Assembly (NCBI GenBank): GCA_947561715.1
Contig: OX387201.1
Location: 21,280,001 to 21,344,000 of the forward strand
Reading direction: 5' to 3'
From: Ascidia mentula
Taxonomy: Eukaryota > Chordata > Ascidiacea > Phlebobranchia > Ascidiidae
Length of the DNA stretch: 64,000 nucleotides
Part shown: positions 2,036 to 55,825 of the stretch, piece by piece
How positions within the stretch are numbered: position 1 is the stretch's first letter
Layout: every line of letters starts with the position of its first letter
Position numbers and translations under genes: made by a program
The notes under the pieces: model-generated
Seen by the model: only the letters and a program-made list of their open reading frames with translations
Told to the model about the DNA's origin: nothing
Databases searched by the model: none

Positions 2036-5000
2036 TTAATCCGAACCACTGGAGTCAGAATCGGAGTTGGGGAGGATCTGTCCACCCAAATCCCAAACTT
2101 CCGGCTGAAAAGTCACAAAAGTTTTGATTTTATTAATATTTACAAATAAATATTTTAAATTAAATCCTCACAGGATCTTCCATATTCCCAAGTGCGTCCT
2201 CCACCATCTTAATCGAATCCGGATCCAATTCGCACCAACGCAGATCCAACCTCCCCCCAACCTTCAGTAAAATCCCACAAATTTTTTTGACATCTTCTCT
2301 TCGATGAAAGTCGTTTCCATCCAGGCCGAGATATGCCACCTGTTTGAAAATATAAATATTGTTTGTAGGAAATGTTTTGATTCTCTTTAAACCAGGAATA
2401 AACAAATATTAAAAGTGGAAAAAAGTAAAAAATACACAAACAAAATTATTCCCAAAACCACAATAAAAATATTTTATGTCATTTTTCTTAAAATCGAAAA
2501 CTTTGGTAAAAAATGCTTTTATTCAAATAAAAACTTATTCCGAAAATAAACAAAAACCGAACAAACCCCGTATTCCATTCTTTTTATTGCTTCACAAATA
2601 ATATTTAAATCTTCGGAGTTCAGGTCGCAATCCCCCAGCCCCAGCTTCAAATCGTTTCTTGTAACTTTTGGTAAAAATTCCGCCAAAACCTCAAGGATTG
2701 AGTGAAGTCGGGTGAAGGAAAAATTCAACATCCGAGGACAAAACCTGGCGAGTTTTTCTAGATGGCATTTTTGGATTTCCTTCAAATCCAGAAATAAATC
2801 TGAAACAAAACAGAAGCAAGCTTATTAAAAAAGCAGAAGTCTGGTTTCCAGTTTTAATAAAATCACTTAAAACAAAACTTACTTTATTCTTGCACAGAAT
2901 TCCCCACGTTTAAGTCGGATTTAATCAACACAAAAACCAACAAATCAATCCAATATAAAACGTTTAAATTATCAGAAAATATAAAAATTACACGACAGAA
3001 ATAAACACGACCTTCCTTTACAAGATTTTTTTAGCAACTGAAAAAAACTGCACTGAGTGTTCGGTTCAAACAATGACTGTGTGACGTAACAAACCCACCC
3101 ATTGTTACATAAATAAATGTAATGTTTACAAACACGCATTAAACTGTTGGCATTCATATCATTTACTCACTCAGTAGATCGTATTCCCTGGGTTGAGATT
3201 TGAGATATTTTGAAAGCGCATCCAATAATTTCGCACTTTTGTCTGGAAAACAAGAAAGACCAACATTTGCAATGGAAATTGTAAAAATGCATTTGGTTGG
3301 ACGAATTATTTGCACTCATATATATTTTTACAAACACAGCCATTATTTGTTGAAGATTTGCGTTACCAAGTGAAGTGTAAAAAGCGCTTTGCACATCTAA
3401 CCGCAGTGCTGTGAAATTGTTGAGTTTAAATATGTTAATTCAAATAGCATACGCGAATGCGTATTTTTGTAATGTTATGAAGGCAAGACAATGACCGATA
3501 CATGAGAATAACACAAAGCAGATTTCATTGGTTTACTCCAACTTGTAGCCTGCTAGATTCACATTGAAGTTACGTTGGCATTTAGTTTTGGTCCAGTTTT
3601 GCAAGTTTTTGAAATATTTTGAGTTACTTGACCTTAACAGCTTAACTGGCAACATTAAATGCAACAAAACCTTTTTGTGGAATGCTGGGGAATGTCATCT
3701 TGCTAGCGGAACTAGTAGCACATCCAGGGTCCAAGTTGGTTTCAGTATTGTCACTTCTTGAAGCTGTCAGCAAAAAAGAAATTATGACACAAAACGCAGT
3801 AACATTTCATGCAATGGCATGATCGCCCCACTGCGCAGGTCCTTGCTTGGCGATCACAGCTAACGTATCGCGAATATTGTGTTTTCAGGCTTGGCAGCCC
3901 AGGCATTGCAGCCTAGCTGGATCAGCCACTTTTTCCTGACAAGTCGGAGCAAGATTTGAAAAATCAGGTGAGGTTTGAACTCATGACCATGGGCCAACCA
4001 ACGCTCTACCAACTGAGCTACAGGAGATCTATACCACTAATATTTCATGCAATGGCATGATTGGCAGTATCGCCAAGCAAGGAACTGTGCACTTGGGCGA
4101 TCATGCCATTGCATGAAATATTACTGCGTTATCTGATACGGTGGTAGAGATCCCCTACGTGTATGTGAAGGTTGCCTGGCAAGTTGTGCGCTTGCGCACC
4201 AGTGTCCCTTCGCCACAATATACCCCGTGAAACCACTGAGCTCATATAGCTCAGTTGGTAGAACGTTGGGCCTGGTCAGCCCAGGGTCGTGAGTTCAAAC
4301 CTCACCGGGAGCTTGATTTTTCAAATTTTGCTCCGACTTGTCAGGAAAAAGTGGCTGACCCAGCCAGGCAGCAATGCGTGGGTTGCCAAGCCTGCAAACC
4401 TTATGACACAAATTCTACAGATGAAGGAATGTACTTACAACTTTCCTTTCCAAGCAAGAGGCCACAAACAAATCGTCGCGTCATGTTCCAGTGTTTTTCT
4501 CCAACCAATGTATCAAGGAATTTGTCGAAGTCTTCATCTGGCATGAACAAGGAAATGTACGAAGCAGCAGAAAATTCCTGAATCATTTGGTGAACAAAGA
4601 AAAAACAAGAAGCTGCAACATCGAAAACTTTTCTTTCTGAAAACCACGAAAATTTTGGTAGTTTTATTATAACATCTTGTACTTTAAGATACTCCAGGCC
4701 CACATTTGAGAGTTCTTGGTGGGTAAATACAACAGTTTTACGAGTCATTCCATTAAATGCCATTCTGCCAAGTGCTTCTCTCAAAAAGTGTATACTACCC
4801 TTAGCATGCTCGGATGCATCGAGTTGTTGCAAAACAACATCAAATAAGCTTGTAATTGTGCCAAAACAGTTTTTGTCACCAAACAAACCAGCATACACAG
4901 CAAACTGCAAAAGTAATGGATTGTGACAAAAGTCTAGCATTTCTGGAGTTTCTTTAAGTTTTTCCCACAGTTCGTTTGCCTTTTCTACAGCAAAGAAATC

Positions 5001-6360
5001 AAATAGCTTCTTCGTGTTTTCTGTAGTAAGGTCACGGATATATATAGTGGGTTTTGGACGAAGTCCCACAGGAATGGAAAGCAGTGAATGAGGACGTGAT
5101 GTAAAGATCAATGATGATTTTTTGAACAGGGTTTTGCTGCAGAGATTAGCAACAAGCTGTTGAACTGTGAACGGAGTTTTATAATCTGTATTAATTCGCT
5201 TCATATTTTCTAATGACCATGTTGCCTGGTCCAGACCATCAAATACCAAAACACATTTTTCTTGGTTTTGTTTCATCCATTTAAATGCAGCATCAAGGTC
5301 AGTTTGCTTAACATCTGGAAACTGCCTATCAAGTAGGAGTTCTTGAAGTGTGAGTTTTTCATCTCCATAATCTAAATTCATGAAACTTAGGTGTAACACC
5401 AAATACCCGTCTTTGTTTTTTCTCAAAAGTTTCTTGGACAAAGTGGATTTCCCTGCACCAGCTGCGCCAATAATGGCAAGAAACTGATCACCACTTTCGA
5501 TTGTGGAAAGCAGCTCATCAAAAGTTATGCGCTCTCCTTTAACTTTATTTTCATTGTACCTTATTGTTGATGGCACAAACTCTTCACCTTTCTTGGTATC
5601 AATACCTTGGTAGAAATCACGTTTCTCCAGCTGTGGACAAACATCTGGGATTCCTTCTTCATTTAAACCAGAAAGAGGTGTGACAGACTTAATTTTGTCC
5701 TGTTCATGTTTGATGATTTCAATGGCTTCTCGCTGCTTTTTGTCTGCAGACAGAAATATAACTAGAGACAAGTAATTATGGCTCACTAGACATTATCATA
5801 TGGAAGCATTCGGGCATTATTGTCAGACATTATCTAGGTAAATATTTTAAATGCAGTAAAGAGGATGAAACAGCTTACTTTCATCTGCTTGTTCACCTTC
5901 GTTTGATGGACCTGCAAAAATTCACACTAATCTGACTTTAAGGGTATAATATCGGCCTGGAGTATTGTAGTTGTTTATTATTATTGGTTGATTGACAATG
6001 CCCTGAACTGCAGCAATGCTACCAGTTATGGTTGCTCCCGGTGCTGATATGTGCTGTGTGGAATCTGATTCAAAGTTAATATCTTGTTAGTGCCTGAAAT
6101 ATCATTTGTACATTACTTGCCTAAAAATAAAAATTTCATTTTAGTTAGGCTACTTTAATTAAAAAGTCACTATGCATGATACATTCCCAATAAAGCTAAG
6201 GTTTAGTATGAGGCATAATTGATTTTAGTAACTTTCCACTCAGTTTTATGTAATAAAGGAGAGAATAACACATTAGACCTGCTTTCTGTTGGACAACTTT
6301 CGAACCAGATTCTGAAATTGTTGTAGTCATTCTTCTTCTCTTGCTTTCTGACTCCGTCAT
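2036..6360 (-). CDS. NACHT-LRR (NLR-like) innate immune receptor
   Basis: Eight minus-strand exons join in phase: 6,360-6,279 (start MTESESKRRR), 6,064-6,023 (or to 5,957), 5,911-5,879, 5,743-4,439, 3,242-3,171, 2,799-2,567, 2,339-2,172, 2,104-2,036. They give about 667 aa, or 689 aa with the longer exon 2. The 1,305-base exon is a NACHT ATPase: Walker A GAAGAGKST, Walker B VLVFDGLD, sensor-like FTSRP, then the winged-helix region. Later exons carry leucine-rich repeats (LKLGLGDCDLNSEDL, YLGLDGNDF, LDLRWCELD). The protein ends in an acidic SDSDSSGSD tail. NLRs are cytosolic sensors that oligomerise through NACHT; the ligand cannot be read. No death, CARD or pyrin domain was recognised at the N-terminus, which instead has a short Gly/Asn-rich, beta-prone segment. 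There are few LRRs for the family. The end of exon 2 is uncertain. Confidence 0.85.
3794..4130. mobile_element. Foldback/TIR element containing an inverted SINE
   Basis: Arms at 3,794-3,854 and 4,069-4,130 are inverted copies of each other over about 60 bases with few mismatches; both outer ends read AACGCAGTAA inward. A second partial arm copy lies at about 4,038-4,065. Between the arms is a reverse-oriented tRNA-derived SINE. The element sits in the long intron after the NACHT exon. No clear target-site duplication was seen. A shortened relative with the same ACATTACTGCGTT end lies in an intron of both cathepsin copies (about 42,318-42,391 and 51,165-51,235). Confidence 0.65.
3880..4026 (-). 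mobile_element. tRNA-derived SINE, minus strand
   Basis: On the minus strand a tRNA-like head is followed by a body also found at 4,320-4,400. The head has an A-box-like TAGCTCAGTTGGTAGAGC and a B-box-like GAGTTCAAACCTCAC. It lies inside the foldback element and is inverted relative to the neighbouring SINE. Confidence 0.65.
4247..4406 (+). mobile_element. tRNA-derived SINE, plus strand
   Basis: The first ~70 bases fold as a tRNA cloverleaf: D arm with TAGCTCAGTTGGTAGA, an anticodon loop CTGGTCA (GGT, Thr-like) and a perfect five-pair T stem around TTCAAAC. The acceptor stem is weak. It continues into a tRNA-unrelated body (4,320-4,406) shared with the inverted copy at 3,880-3,950, so it is read as a SINE rather than a functional tRNA gene. 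Its 3' end reaches the intron boundary of the NACHT exon. Confidence 0.65.
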
Positions 6361-44347: not shown

Positions 44348-44986
44348 ATAGTGTCTGTGTGGATTGTTAGTCGACCAGACCGTCGTCAGTCATCAAATAC
44401 ACTGATGAGACCCAATAGGTCGAAACCGTGTGCACAACTGTCTGCAGATAACTGGTTATCTTAAAAGTTAACTCCACAAATGTAGCGCAAAAGAACCTGC
44501 GATCACTTGTTTGACGTTTTCTTTCCAAGTTTTCACGCTTTATTATATCACGTATTCATTTACGCCACGTTTTTTCACCTCTTATTCTTAAACCTTCCAC
44601 CTACTTAATTAAATGTTTTTATGTTAATTTATATTTTAATTCACGTAATTGTCTCGAAAGCACCAGTCACCGCACGTTGATTTTACATAGCAGCGCTAAC
44701 TCCCTCTCTCTCACGTGACACGGTTGGGCCAATGACGAGTGATATAAAAGATAGAAACGGGACTAACGCGAGACTCTAAAGGAGGACTGCCAGGCTGCTT
44801 TGTAGATCGTTATTCGCCTGCTTGTATTTTAAAGTTTTATGAACAAGATTTAATCTGATTGGAAAACCGTTGTGCTGGAACAGGCTTGTGGTGAGTCGGT
44901 AATACAGCGTCCTGAGGACCTTGGAAAGCGTTTGGTTTAAGAAGCGTAACACAAATACGAAAAATCAACATTTTCTACAAAACGTT
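44348..44986. mobile_element. ~640 bp insertion with hammerhead ribozyme motif
   Basis: Block B reads straight from 'actataactcaaa' to 'ccgtttccgcat' near 52,490, whereas block A has about 640 extra bases here. The insertion starts with the hammerhead motif at 44,395-44,457 and ends near 'ctacaaaa'. It also holds a TATA-like ATATAAAAG (44,741-44,749) after a CACGTG box, which looks like a promoter. No protein frame is present. A non-autonomous hammerhead-bearing retroelement (retrozyme-like, or the terminal part of a Penelope-like element) is the best guess. Confidence 0.55.
44374..44457 (+). ncRNA. Type I hammerhead ribozyme motif, core intact
   Basis: CTGATGA (44,402-44,408); stem II GACC/GGTC around CAATA; GAAA (44,422-44,425); stem III ACCGT/ACTGT with one mismatch; GTC (44,440-44,442), with cleavage expected after C44,442. 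Stem II and its CAAUA loop closely resemble known Schistosoma-type hammerheads. Proximal stem I is weak (TG/CA then mismatches), but ACCAG (44,374-44,378) can pair with CTGGT (44,452-44,456) further out. All invariant core bases are present. Confidence 0.65.
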
Positions 44987-46171: not shown

Positions 46172-47470
46172 GTGACAAGCACCTCAATATCATTCCATGT
46201 AAATGGACAACTGTATACAGGTTTGTTGAAGCTTATATGCAAAAATCTTCTGCATTTCTTTTTTTAGCTTTTTAATGCATTTTTATTTAGTTAATTTTAG
46301 TTGTTGGCAAAAGCTGTCACGAAAATGTGGACGTGTTTGTTAAAGATAGAAGTAGAAATTATTAGTTGTTGTAAACCTGTTTGCTTTGTTCAGTTGATGA
46401 TGTGGATCCGATGATGAGCCTGAACTCATGGCTCCTATCACAACCAGGACTCACTGGAACAAAAGTTATATGTTATGAGGGAGTGGATGTGGATGTTGCG
46501 TGGTTGCCATGGAGAAAACTCCTGGAAAGATAGAAGCTGTAAACTCGGTGAATGTTGAAAGTTAAACTCTATGTCTTGGTTTGTTGTTTAATCATAACTG
46601 ATATGCAGATGCTTCCTATTCATCAACTAATTTTACTGTGTTTGACATAAAAATGCATATTTAAAAAAAATTTATGTATTGACAAACGTATTTAGTGCCT
46701 CAGCCTGCTTGCTTCAGTGGACGGGTGCAGAGTAACAACTGTGGAAGGACTTGGGTCACGAAGAGATGGCTACAATGCAATACAAACTCGTGTAGCTGAG
46801 TTCGATGGTTCACAGTGTGGTTATTGCACTCCTGGCTTCGTCATGAATATGTACAGGTTCGCTTATAAATTAGAATACACAGAAAATTTGTGGTGGGTTA
46901 TTCAGAGTATGTTTTTCTGGCCTTTCAAACTCAACTGGGCTTATTATATTAAATCATTGCAGTATGCATGTTTATATGTAGTTGCCAATAAAACCATAAA
47001 GCAACCCTCTCATCTTTTTAGCCTTTTATCAGAAGGTCCAACTCCAACCGAGCAAAGATAGTTTTGATGGAAACATTTGTCGTTGTACAGGATATCGTCC
47101 CATACTTGATGCAATGAAATGTTTTGCAACATATGCTGACCCAAAACTGCTGGAAAAATGTTCAGACATTGAGGTACAACATGCAATAAAGTGTACAAAC
47201 TTTCTGATTCCTTTTCTGTGACCAACAAATACTTTAATTAAACAACATTGTATCTCTAGAAATTTTTAACAGTTTTTGTTTTTTAGGATCTTGAAAAGGA
47301 GTTCTGTCATTTAAAATGCAACAAACGAAAGTTAGTGCAACAAAAAGCAACCAGGCTTGAATTATTTAATGGTGGAACTTCATGGATCCGACCAACTTCG
47401 TTTAATGATTTAGTTGCAGTTCTCAAATCCCAACCGACTGCCCAAATAGTTTGTAAAAACACTGCTTCTG
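46172..47470 (+). pseudogene. Molybdenum hydroxylase, broken copy A
   Basis: Counterpart of 53,524-55,155 with exons 46,172-46,220, 46,394 to about 46,547, about 46,704-46,856, 47,022-47,173 and 47,287-47,470. The start codon reads GTG instead of ATG, two bases are inserted in the first 2Fe-2S motif (near 46,482), and eight bases are lost in exon 4 giving a stop (near 47,058). The VVEGLGS-type and QCGYCTPGF motifs are still readable. Clearly non-functional. Confidence 0.85.
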
Positions 47471-48349: not shown

Positions 48350-48585
48350 AAATGCGGACACGTGCACACAATATTTCATCCTATAAGGTCTCATCAGTGC
48401 AGTTTGGTGTGACTGTGGCACTGGGCTAGCTTGTAGACTACCATGCACACTTACACCACAGACACCTTGAAATTAAAATCTGTGTCCCTGTCGGTATCCA
48501 AGTTGTCCCAGCCAGTGTCACAGTCACCAGCTGCACTGATGAGACCTTTATAGATTGAAACAGTGCGTGCATGTGTCCGCAGATC
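48350..48585. mobile_element. Element with hammerhead motifs at both ends
   Basis: The right end carries a plus-strand hammerhead motif: AGCTGCA, CTGATGA (48,536-48,542), a weakened stem II, GAAA, stem III and GTC (near 48,574). The left end carries the same motif on the minus strand: CTGATGA at 48,397-48,391, GAAA at 48,377-48,374 and GTC at 48,359-48,357. Both cleavage sites thus face outward near the element ends. Stem II is decayed in both. A second copy lies at 55,611-55,825. Confidence 0.6.
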
Positions 48586-48879
48586 TAACACACATCCATA
48601 ATTACTGCACTAACCAGTATATATCAACCTAGTTTATTTTTACTTTCAACTTGCTGCACATTTATCATATATTGCTAGAGTTGCGTCATCAATTCTAATT
48701 GGTCTCAAAAGAAACAGCGACATTATTATATAAACAGGTGTGTGATTCCTAGCGACGTTGTTACAATCTGAGTGGAGCGCATTCCACGTACGATATTCGG
48801 GTTAGGTCTGACTCATCCCTGTGTATGTGCACTTATTTAAACTAACCCGGTATCCAACCACTGCTAATTTCGTCATCAA

Positions 48880-53523: not shown

Positions 53524-55155
53524 ATGACAAGTACCTCAATATCATTCCATGTAAATGGACAACTGTATACAGGTTTGTTGAAGCTTATTTGCAAAAAAAC
53601 TTCTGCATTTCTTTTTTTAGGCTTTTAATGCATTTTTATTTAGTTAATTTTAGTTGTTGGCAATAGCTGTCACAAAAAATGTGGACGTCCTTGTTAAAGA
53701 TAGAAGTAGAAATTATTAGTTGTTGTAAACCTGTTTGCTTTGTTCAGTTGATGATGTGGATCCGATGATGAGCCTGAACTCATGGCTCCGATCACAACCA
53801 GGACTCACTGGAACAAAAGTTATGTGTTATGAGGGAGGATGTGGATGTTGCGTGGTTGCCATGGAGAAAACTCCTGGAAAGATAGAAACTGTAAACTTGG
53901 TGAATGTTAAAAGTTAAACTCTATGTCTTGGTTTGTTGTTTAATCATAACTGATATGCAGATGCTTCCTATTCATTAACTAATTTTACTGTGATAAGCAA
54001 TGTGGAGCCAATAATATGAATTGTGTATAAGCTGCAGACACGGGGCCTGATGGCACTATTGGTTGAGCTTTGCTTGGTCATGGTGTTTCCACTTTGTTTT
54101 CTCCGTAAGGTTGCACCTAGTTTGGTGCCCAACGGATGACGGTGATTGCATAGTCACCACAAAGTGGAAGTCTTTGCTTGGCCGTTTGGTCAGCAAAGTT
54201 GTCTTATCGTCACACCAGCTGCACTGATGAGACCTTTTAGGTCAAAACAGTGGCCATCTGTCTGCAGCTTATACACAATTTTACTGTGTTTGACATAAAA
54301 ATGCATATTTAAAAAAAATCTTATGTATTGACAAATGTATTAAGTGCCTCAGCCTGCTTGCTTCAGTGGACGGGTGCAGAGTAACAACTGTGGAAGGACT
54401 TGGGTCACGAAGAGATGGCTACAATGCAATACAAACTCGTGTAGCTGAGTTTGATGCTTCACAGTGTGGTTATTGCACTCCTGGCTTCGTCATGAATATG
54501 TACAGGTTCGCTTATAAATTAGAATACACAGAAAATTTGTGGTGGGTTATTGACAATTTTTTTTCAAAATAAAATGTCAGAGAATGCTTTTCTGGCCTTT
54601 CAAACACAACTGTGCTTATTTTATTAAATCATTACAGTATATGCATGTTTATATGTAGTTGCCAATAAAACCATAAAGTAACCCTCTTGTCTTTTTAGCC
54701 TTTTATCAGAAGATCCAACTCCAACCGAACAGAAAGTTGAAGATAGTTTTGATGGAAACATTTGTCGTTGTACAGGATATCGTCCCATACTTGATGCAAT
54801 GAAATCTTTTGCAAAAGATGCTGACCCAAAACTGCTGGAAAAATGTTCAGACATTGAGGTACAACATGCAATAAAATGTACAAACTTCCTGATTCCTTTT
54901 CTGTGACCAACAAATACTTTAAGTAAACAACATTGTATCTCTGGAAATGTTCAACAGTTTTTGTTTCTCAGGATCTTGAAAAGGATTTTTGTCATTTAAA
55001 ATGCAACAAACGAAAGTTGGTGCAACAAAAAGCAACCAGGCTTGAATTATTTAATGGTGGAACTTCATGGATCCGACCAACTTCATTCAATGATTTAGTT
55101 GCAGTTCTCAAATCCCAACCAACTGCTCAAATAGTTTGTGGAAACACTGCTTCTG
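53524..55155 (+). CDS. Molybdenum hydroxylase (xanthine dehydrogenase/aldehyde oxidase-like), N-terminal part
   Basis: Exons 53,524-53,572 (MTSTSISFHVNGQLYT), 53,748-53,899, 54,353 (or 54,367)-54,505, 54,699-54,858 and 54,972-55,155. They encode the plant-type 2Fe-2S domain (MCYEGGCGCC), the second 2Fe-2S domain (SQCGYCTPGFVMNMY; GNICRCTGYRPILDA) and the start of the FAD domain (LFNGGTSWIRP, VCGNTASG). In this family these clusters relay electrons from the molybdenum centre to FAD. The junction of exons 2 and 3 does not keep frame with the splice sites seen and skips the fourth Cys ligand of the first cluster, so a small exon is missed or lost. The gene stops after a good GTAAGT donor: no further FAD or any molybdopterin exons follow before the next gene. 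Probably a truncated duplicate. Confidence 0.75.
53993..54276 (+). mobile_element. 284 bp insertion with 3'-terminal hammerhead motif
   Basis: Absent at the equivalent intron site of block A (46,635). The insertion is flanked by a 12-base direct repeat AATTTTACTGTG (53,981-53,992 and 54,277-54,288), as expected of a target-site duplication. Internal inverted ends TTGTGTATAAGCTGCAGAC (54,021-54,039) and its complement (54,262-54,280) frame most of it. No coding capacity. Confidence 0.75.
54217..54269 (+). ncRNA. Type I hammerhead ribozyme motif, one core base changed
   Basis: Stem I AGCTGCA/TGCAGCT pairs perfectly (54,217-54,223 with 54,263-54,269). CTGATGA is at 54,224-54,230. Stem II is GACC/GGTC around TTTTA. 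The next box reads AAAA (54,244-54,247) instead of GAAA. Stem III ACAG/CTGT is perfect, and the cleavage triplet is GTC ending at 54,262. All three helices are intact and only the conserved G of the GAAA box is replaced by A, as a CpG transition would do; this copy should be inactive. Confidence 0.7.
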
Positions 55156-55610: not shown

Positions 55611-55825
55611 AATGCGGACACTTGTACACAATATTTCATTCTATAAGGTCTCATTAGTACAGTTTGGTGTGACTGTGGCACTGGGCTACCTTGTAGACTA
55701 CCATGCACACTTACACCACAGACACCATGAAGTTAAAATCTGTGTCCCTGTGAGTATCCAAGTTGCCCCAGCCAGTGTCACAGTCACCAGCTGCACTGAT
55801 GATACCTTTATAGATTGAAACAGTC
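55611..55825. mobile_element. Second copy of the two-ended hammerhead element
   Basis: Aligns with 48,350-48,560. The plus-strand motif has CTGATGA (55,796-55,802) and GAAAC but is cut off in stem III, where ANKAR-like flanking sequence begins. The minus-strand motif at the left end has a changed core (CTAATGA). It lies between the truncated molybdenum hydroxylase and the truncated ANKAR-like gene, exactly at the block join. Confidence 0.55.

Follow-up and report, generated by a model that had tools for sequence, protein, structure and literature searches.

A decayed hammerhead retrozyme in Ascidia mentula and a two-site, head-to-head end signature that points to insertion by Penelope-type machinery

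The window analysed here is a 64,000-nucleotide stretch of chromosome 5 of the Ascidia mentula assembly kaAscMent1.1 (21.28-21.34 Mb). It contains a 284-bp insertion between two copies of a 12-base direct repeat, a paralogous intron in which the insertion is missing, and three further relics from older retrozyme subfamilies, two of which are head-to-head. Elsewhere in the window are a tRNA match above the Rfam gathering score (4240-4313, 36.1 bits) and a 461-aa ORF on the minus strand (4401-5786) whose P-loop looks NACHT-like by eye. The features of the insertion, its empty site and the relics are as follows.

53993..54276, plus strand: whole retrozyme insertion, 284 bp, read directly and from the empty site
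53981..53992, plus strand: left copy of the target-site duplication, AATTTTACTGTG, from repeat comparison and the empty site
54277..54288, plus strand: right copy of the target-site duplication, AATTTTACTGTG
46347..46901, plus strand: paralogous intron without the insertion (empty site)
44400..44447, plus strand: hammerhead relic of an older retrozyme, with core boxes preserved and stem I degraded (by eye)
48374..48600: older retrozyme relic, head-to-head (48374-48414 minus, 48525-48600 plus)
55641..55824: older retrozyme relic, head-to-head (55641-55674 minus, 55785-55824 plus)

When the flanks are joined through one copy of the repeat, they match 46347-46901 with 97.7% identity and 3 gap positions, and the insertion is therefore absent from that intron. 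Both the 12-base repeat and the empty duplicate intron had been described in a first-pass annotation of this DNA, and both are borne out. No window ORF of at least 110 aa overlaps the insertion. Its initial ~50 bases are an inverted piece of its own unit, forming a 29-nt inverted repeat (90%) that the earlier reading had overlooked. The same insertion with both duplications is present at six places (L001-L006; 97-100% identity over 310 bases), whose flanks were judged alike, so that they represent copies of one duplicated block. The suggestion that the element moved after the block duplication is thus correct for some duplications, as the empty paralogue indicates, but not for others, which the insertion preceded; being present in six block copies yet absent from one paralogue, it moved between block duplications.

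The 3' part of the insertion carries a hammerhead fold, read directly from the letters.

54217..54269, plus strand: type I hammerhead fold with G12A
54217-54223/54263-54269: stem I, 7 of 7 pairs
54224-54230: core box CTGATGA
54231-54235/54239-54243: stem II, 5 pairs
54244-54247: core box AAAA replacing GAAA
54247-54250/54258-54261: stem III, 4 pairs
54262..54263, plus strand: predicted self-cleavage site, between C17 (54262) and T54263, from its position in the hammerhead fold

The hammerhead in the window is real: a complete type I fold with a single core change, G12A. The perfect seven-pair stem I, the CTGATGA box, the four-pair stem III and the AAAA box stand as first described, while stem II has five pairs rather than the four originally counted. 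We take the cut to fall after C17 (54262), following the general hammerhead rule. G12 is a core position with a role in ribozyme function, and the ribozyme of the window copy has probably been inactivated by G12A. The change itself looks derived from the sequences, a later loss in one lineage, since L001-L003 read AAAA and L004-L006 read GAAA. The window copy thus looks like a slightly damaged member of a family of putative self-cutting RNA parasites.

Folded alone, the 71-nt stretch with the window hammerhead beats shuffles by no more than a moderate margin (z -1.62), and the hammerhead is not its minimum-energy fold; even in the GAAA form, the minimum-energy fold (-17.4 kcal/mol) is slightly better than the hammerhead fold (-16.0 kcal/mol). 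No hammerhead in the window reaches the Rfam gathering scores, and a search of the whole genome with RF00008 at the gathering score gave no match, with control genomes equally silent. In a relaxed search, the GAAA copy L006 scored 27.2 bits with Hammerhead_3 and 21 bits with RAGATH-1-hammerhead, both below gathering. The snoRNA and lncRNA matches that accompanied weak hammerhead matches in the relaxed searches were taken as chance.

Searching the genome (195.8 Mb, 79 contigs; the published kaAscMent1.1 assembly is given as 197.0 Mb in 95 scaffolds, PMC11109543) with a 30-base hammerhead pattern and up to 3 mismatches returned 4125 matches (2080 and 2045 on the two strands) against 0 for the reversed pattern, which excludes chance as the origin of the hammerhead. 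Exact matches to the pattern with GAAA numbered 806. Among the first 100 exact matches listed, the core box was GAAA in 96 and AAAA in 4, and among the 121 modules that passed a pairing filter (103 loci, units of one array being counted separately) it was GAAA in 116 and AAAA in 5; position 17 of these modules was C in 109, A in 7, T in 4 and G in 1. Relatives therefore mostly carry GAAA, and the proposed hammerhead-bearing retroelement family exists in thousands of matches. Its hammerhead is of type I, open at stem I, with CUGANGA, GAAA and NUH (the window copy itself reading AAAA), and loop III occurs in at least two types, TGGCCAT and a GTGTACAC-like palindrome. The hammerhead variant CTGATGAGACCTTTATAGATTGAAACAGTGC was found at 16 places in C69:19.98-21.33 Mb and once on C1, a recurrence that suggests repeated amplification of a gene block; judging from a translated exon, the amplified C69 block presumably resembles xanthine dehydrogenase/aldehyde oxidase.

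In an alignment of 57 of 67 modules (10 spurious or chimeric rows were dropped by eye), the stems are paired in 93.8% of 912 cells and the core boxes are largely kept. Compensatory stem changes, set beforehand as a test, amounted to one two-sided compensated cell in 912, which shuffles equalled; the stems stay paired through conservation of their sequence. The first-pass annotation was to be given up if relatives lacked both compensatory changes and the GAAA/CTGATGA boxes, and since the boxes are preserved, it is retained despite the absent covariation. In hammerhead-like motifs of Penelope-like elements (PLEs) of the same genome, stem II has a different sequence, yet by eye it is paired.

The repeating unit is 285 nt from cut to cut, as measured in an array on C1, and is noncoding, occurring in tandem or singly. 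Among the first 100 exact matches listed, all 11 same-strand neighbours within 2 kb lie 284-286 bases apart, and all 9 opposite-strand neighbours within 2 kb are arranged minus then plus; arrays of 285-bp units with an inverted head also occur. Metazoan non-LTR retrozymes are noncoding tandem units of ~170-400 nt with a type I hammerhead and target duplications longer than 4 bp (Cervera and de la Pena 2020, PMC7229834). The A. mentula family fits this class, with a short noncoding unit (in the range of about 150-450 bp) that also occurs in tandem.

Numbering the unit from the first base after the predicted cut (U1), and calling an outer end start-type where the 3' side of the RNA faces outward, the window copy resolves into two arcs.

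53991..54040, minus strand: long-start arc, inverted, U47 through U1 to U282 (left end of L001, start-type, U47)
54037..54281, plus strand: short-start arc, U60 through U285 to U19 (right end of L001, start-type, U19)

The long-start arc contains a 'tail' of ~30 nt (about U17-U46), and its first two bases also belong to the left duplication; similarly, the final bases of the short-start arc are common to the right duplication. The same analysis was carried out automatically on 98 loci, with the PLE loci L091-L095 left out and L084 and L090, which are cut by the stretch, dropped. Merging loci with like flanks gave 74 rows, and counting L085 and L089 as one array gave 73, a figure that depends on crude flank merging in which low-complexity flanks may have been joined. 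Head-to-head insertions made up 33 of the 73. There were 108 start-type ends (106 corrected), of which 101 fell at U1-60 and 7 elsewhere, with peaks of 38 at U11-20 and 33 at U41-50 (37 and 32 corrected). The outer ends thus cluster at two sites ~30 nt apart, both 3' of the predicted cut.

These two sites are paired one with the other. Two-ended insertions comprised 29 with one short and one long end (28 corrected), 2 short with short, 2 short with other, 1 long with other and 0 long with long; among one-ended insertions, 25 had a short end, 10 a long end and 5 another end. Only 2 of 30 clean pairs had ends of matching type, against about half expected if ends were chosen freely. Likewise, among loci found without likeness to the window copy, 14 were short with long, 1 short with short and 0 long with long (L085/L089 corrected). 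The two short-with-short exceptions are L018, whose flanks are inverted repeats of each other, and L069, which belongs to another subfamily. L018 is itself head-to-head, and it is its 40-base flanks that repeat one another inverted. As for truncation-type ends, 11 of 40 lie at U171-U210, near strong predicted hairpins, and are perhaps reverse-transcription pauses.

In 18 insertions picked for a clean target duplication, the duplication was 12 bp in 14 and 13 bp in 4, longer than 4 bp throughout, with 80% A+T. Candidates outside this set ranged from 7 to 16 bp, partly because target and unit have a few junction bases in common, and in many one-ended or older copies no target duplication was found. 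The region U12-U60 is predicted to form a hairpin whose 5' arm carries the short site; the long site lies next to the 3' arm. Moreover, short-start arcs run from about U16 back across the cut site into U285 and beyond, and we infer a template that was rejoined or uncut, as a linear unit cut at both ends could not yield such copies.

The same architecture is known from PLEs, for which a protein that cuts and extends both strands has been reported, with two internal start sites that bound a genomic 'tail' (Frangieh 2024, PMC11167929); an inverted pLTR with a 31-bp tail at one end has also been described (Arkhipova 2013, PMC3846280). The retrozyme shares with them the head-to-head insert, the tail of ~30 nt at one end and the short target duplication (28 insertions short with long, 2 short with short, 0 long with long), as well as starts on a stem-loop 3' of the hammerhead and AT-rich targets. 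It differs from them in having no ORF, and the insertion thus does not carry the reverse transcriptase and GIY-YIG ORF of a PLE proper, and in showing no sequence similarity to the PLE ends read.

PLEs are present in the A. mentula genome, with at least 121 GIY-YIG places among 150 scored of 382 candidates, and all 17 opposite-strand GIY-YIG neighbours within 8 kb are arranged minus then plus. One PLE unit of 2870 bp encodes an 886-aa ORF with RVT_1 and GIY-YIG and includes a small hammerhead-like motif. Of four PLE insertions read at both ends, three have one short and one long end: C67 and C72 from one family and C70 from another, with shared strings of 12, 12 and 13 bp, respectively. The fourth, C52 from a third family, has two same-site ends and no visible duplication (the ends of C72, C70 and C52 and all PLE duplications were read by eye). 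The PLE region between the two ends is likewise predicted to pair, in a manner that resembles the retrozyme hairpin by eye. These insertions suggest a rule for PLEs themselves of one short and one long start per insertion. Comparing the retrozyme unit with the PLE 3' regions read returned nothing beyond 11-mers and a nearby retrozyme, and we therefore name no partner PLE family. At L019 and L023, PLE 3' pieces adjoin or sit inside retrozyme copies, as either nested insertions or template switches.

We consider it quite likely that the window copy is a decayed noncoding A. mentula retrozyme inserted by PLE machinery acting in trans. In this six-step account, tandem 285-nt units would be transcribed, and the hammerhead would cut each unit after C17. 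The RNA would then be rejoined as a circle, or the uncut multimer would be used. A PLE reverse transcriptase/GIY-YIG endonuclease supplied in trans would make staggered cuts in an AT-rich target, one per strand and about 12 bp apart. Each cut end would serve as a primer for cDNA synthesis, which would begin at the short site (about 16 nt 3' of the ribozyme cut) from one end and at the long site (about 46 nt) from the other, the two sites lying on the two arms of the predicted stem-loop. Finally, joining of the two antisense cDNAs would create a head-to-head insert in which one end carries the tail and the other lacks it. We infer these events from features that are directly read, namely the anatomy, the two end sites and their pairing, the duplications, the empty site and the like anatomy in three of four PLE insertions. 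The analysis supports the earlier proposal of target-primed reverse transcription, which can be narrowed to a process of the PLE type. The two end sites are paired as in three of the four PLE insertions read, and the retrozyme was probably placed by two-site reverse transcription as in PLEs, the action of a PLE itself being proposed from sequence.

A LINE could instead have mobilised uncut multimeric retrozyme RNA. LINE-1 twin priming yields inverted 5' parts, so the inversions might be ordinary products of that process, and multi-unit arrays do exist. We think this unlikely, as the outer ends lie at two fixed internal sites paired one with one, poly-A is absent from the ends inspected by eye, and three of four PLE insertions in the genome follow the same end rule. 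Considerably less probable is a DNA transposon of the foldback or MITE type that was mobilised by a transposase and carried the hammerhead as a passenger. The 29-nt, 90% inverted repeat near the ends of the window copy could be read as its terminal inverted repeat, and dispersed relatives are many; however, the inverted part varies in length among copies from the tail only to much of a unit, one end is tailless in short-and-long pairs, and inverted heads occur on arrays of 285-bp units. Fixed terminal inverted repeats at both ends were not seen among the copies examined, and the MITE reading of the inverted repeat was dropped because the inner junctions are variable. Satellite DNA spread through unequal exchange, with a fossil ribozyme, would explain the tandem 285-bp arrays but is hardly credible: the 96 uncut loci resolve into 73 separate insertions, target duplications accompany many of these, and the window copy has both a duplication and an empty site.

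Within the preferred account of insertion by PLE machinery in trans, the template may have been one circular retrozyme RNA that two PLE reverse transcriptases copied a single time, a reading to which we give slightly less than even weight. One enzyme would start at the long site and halt where the other had started, while the other would travel round the circle until it met the long site or, where that site had not been used, its own start. Among 22 two-ended insertions of simple anatomy, 11 have a long-start arc that ends at the short start (U10-30). The short-start arcs number 35; 20 of them extend to U77, with 13 of these stopping at U38-77 and 7 at U17-31, and in seven insertions the two arcs together make approximately one circle. 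Similarity to a full-length copy was the means by which many of the loci were found, and this sampling affects the result: for loci obtained without it, the long-arc result persists (5 of 11, nominal P 0.0007), whereas the short-arc result is not significant (6 of 19, nominal P 0.14), both values coming from a crude uniform model. Arcs of more than one turn pass both stop windows; three of them (L021, L027 and L062) were scored as non-stopping and the rest were omitted, which favours the circle.

The arc counts, whose inner coordinates were entered by hand, omit the two-ended L010, L015, L016, L028, L064, L085/L089 and L096 (multi-turn or complex), L018 and L069, and L036, L046 and L076, which have unclassified ends; they include L023, which was merged with an earlier locus in the end analysis. 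Of the 25 short-only rows, 13 were used. The others (L041, L042, L044, L047, L051, L052, L053, L059, L067, L068, L098 and L100) were omitted because they end at about U229-247, where other subfamilies have only the hammerhead in common. The same stops would be expected from a linear multimer whose every tail was occupied by a PLE. Overall, the anatomy of some copies is suggestive of a single RNA circle that was reverse-transcribed as two arcs. On that reading, the genome would preserve direct traces of an RNA circle being reverse-transcribed, and each of the two start sites would be used once by one PLE dimer.

Compared with known systems, the A. mentula retrozyme is of a kind already described, the metazoan non-LTR retrozyme, and what is new is the two-site, head-to-head end signature. 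Its likeness to the described elements includes the tandem noncoding unit, the type I hammerhead, the duplications longer than 4 bp and the presence of PLEs with small hammerheads in the same genome (PMC7229834). However, the present host is an ascidian, and the main text of that paper mentions neither tunicates, ascidians nor Ciona, nor head-to-head insertions and two-site ends; it names PLEs as a strong candidate for mobilising retrozymes, a proposal made there without the end-signature evidence found here. The PLE in vitro work (PMC11167929), in the parts consulted, reports no strand difference in start site, does not state an obligate short and long pairing, and does not mention retrozymes or circular templates. 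Plant LTR retrozymes (PMC4918200) likewise have a hammerhead, and circular RNAs are known for them, but theirs is a type III hammerhead within LTRs, with 4-bp duplications (as given in PMC7229834). Titles and abstract openings of the open-licence papers listed yielded no tunicate retrozymes or head-to-head two-site retrozyme ends; the Didemnum vexillum genome paper mentions a hammerhead ribozyme once (PMC8704543).

The 2020 paper left open which enzyme moves animal retrozymes and whether the circle is the template. The end signature ties retrozymes to PLE-type integration by anatomy and can be counted in any retrozyme-bearing genome, and the question of the circle becomes testable from junctions alone.
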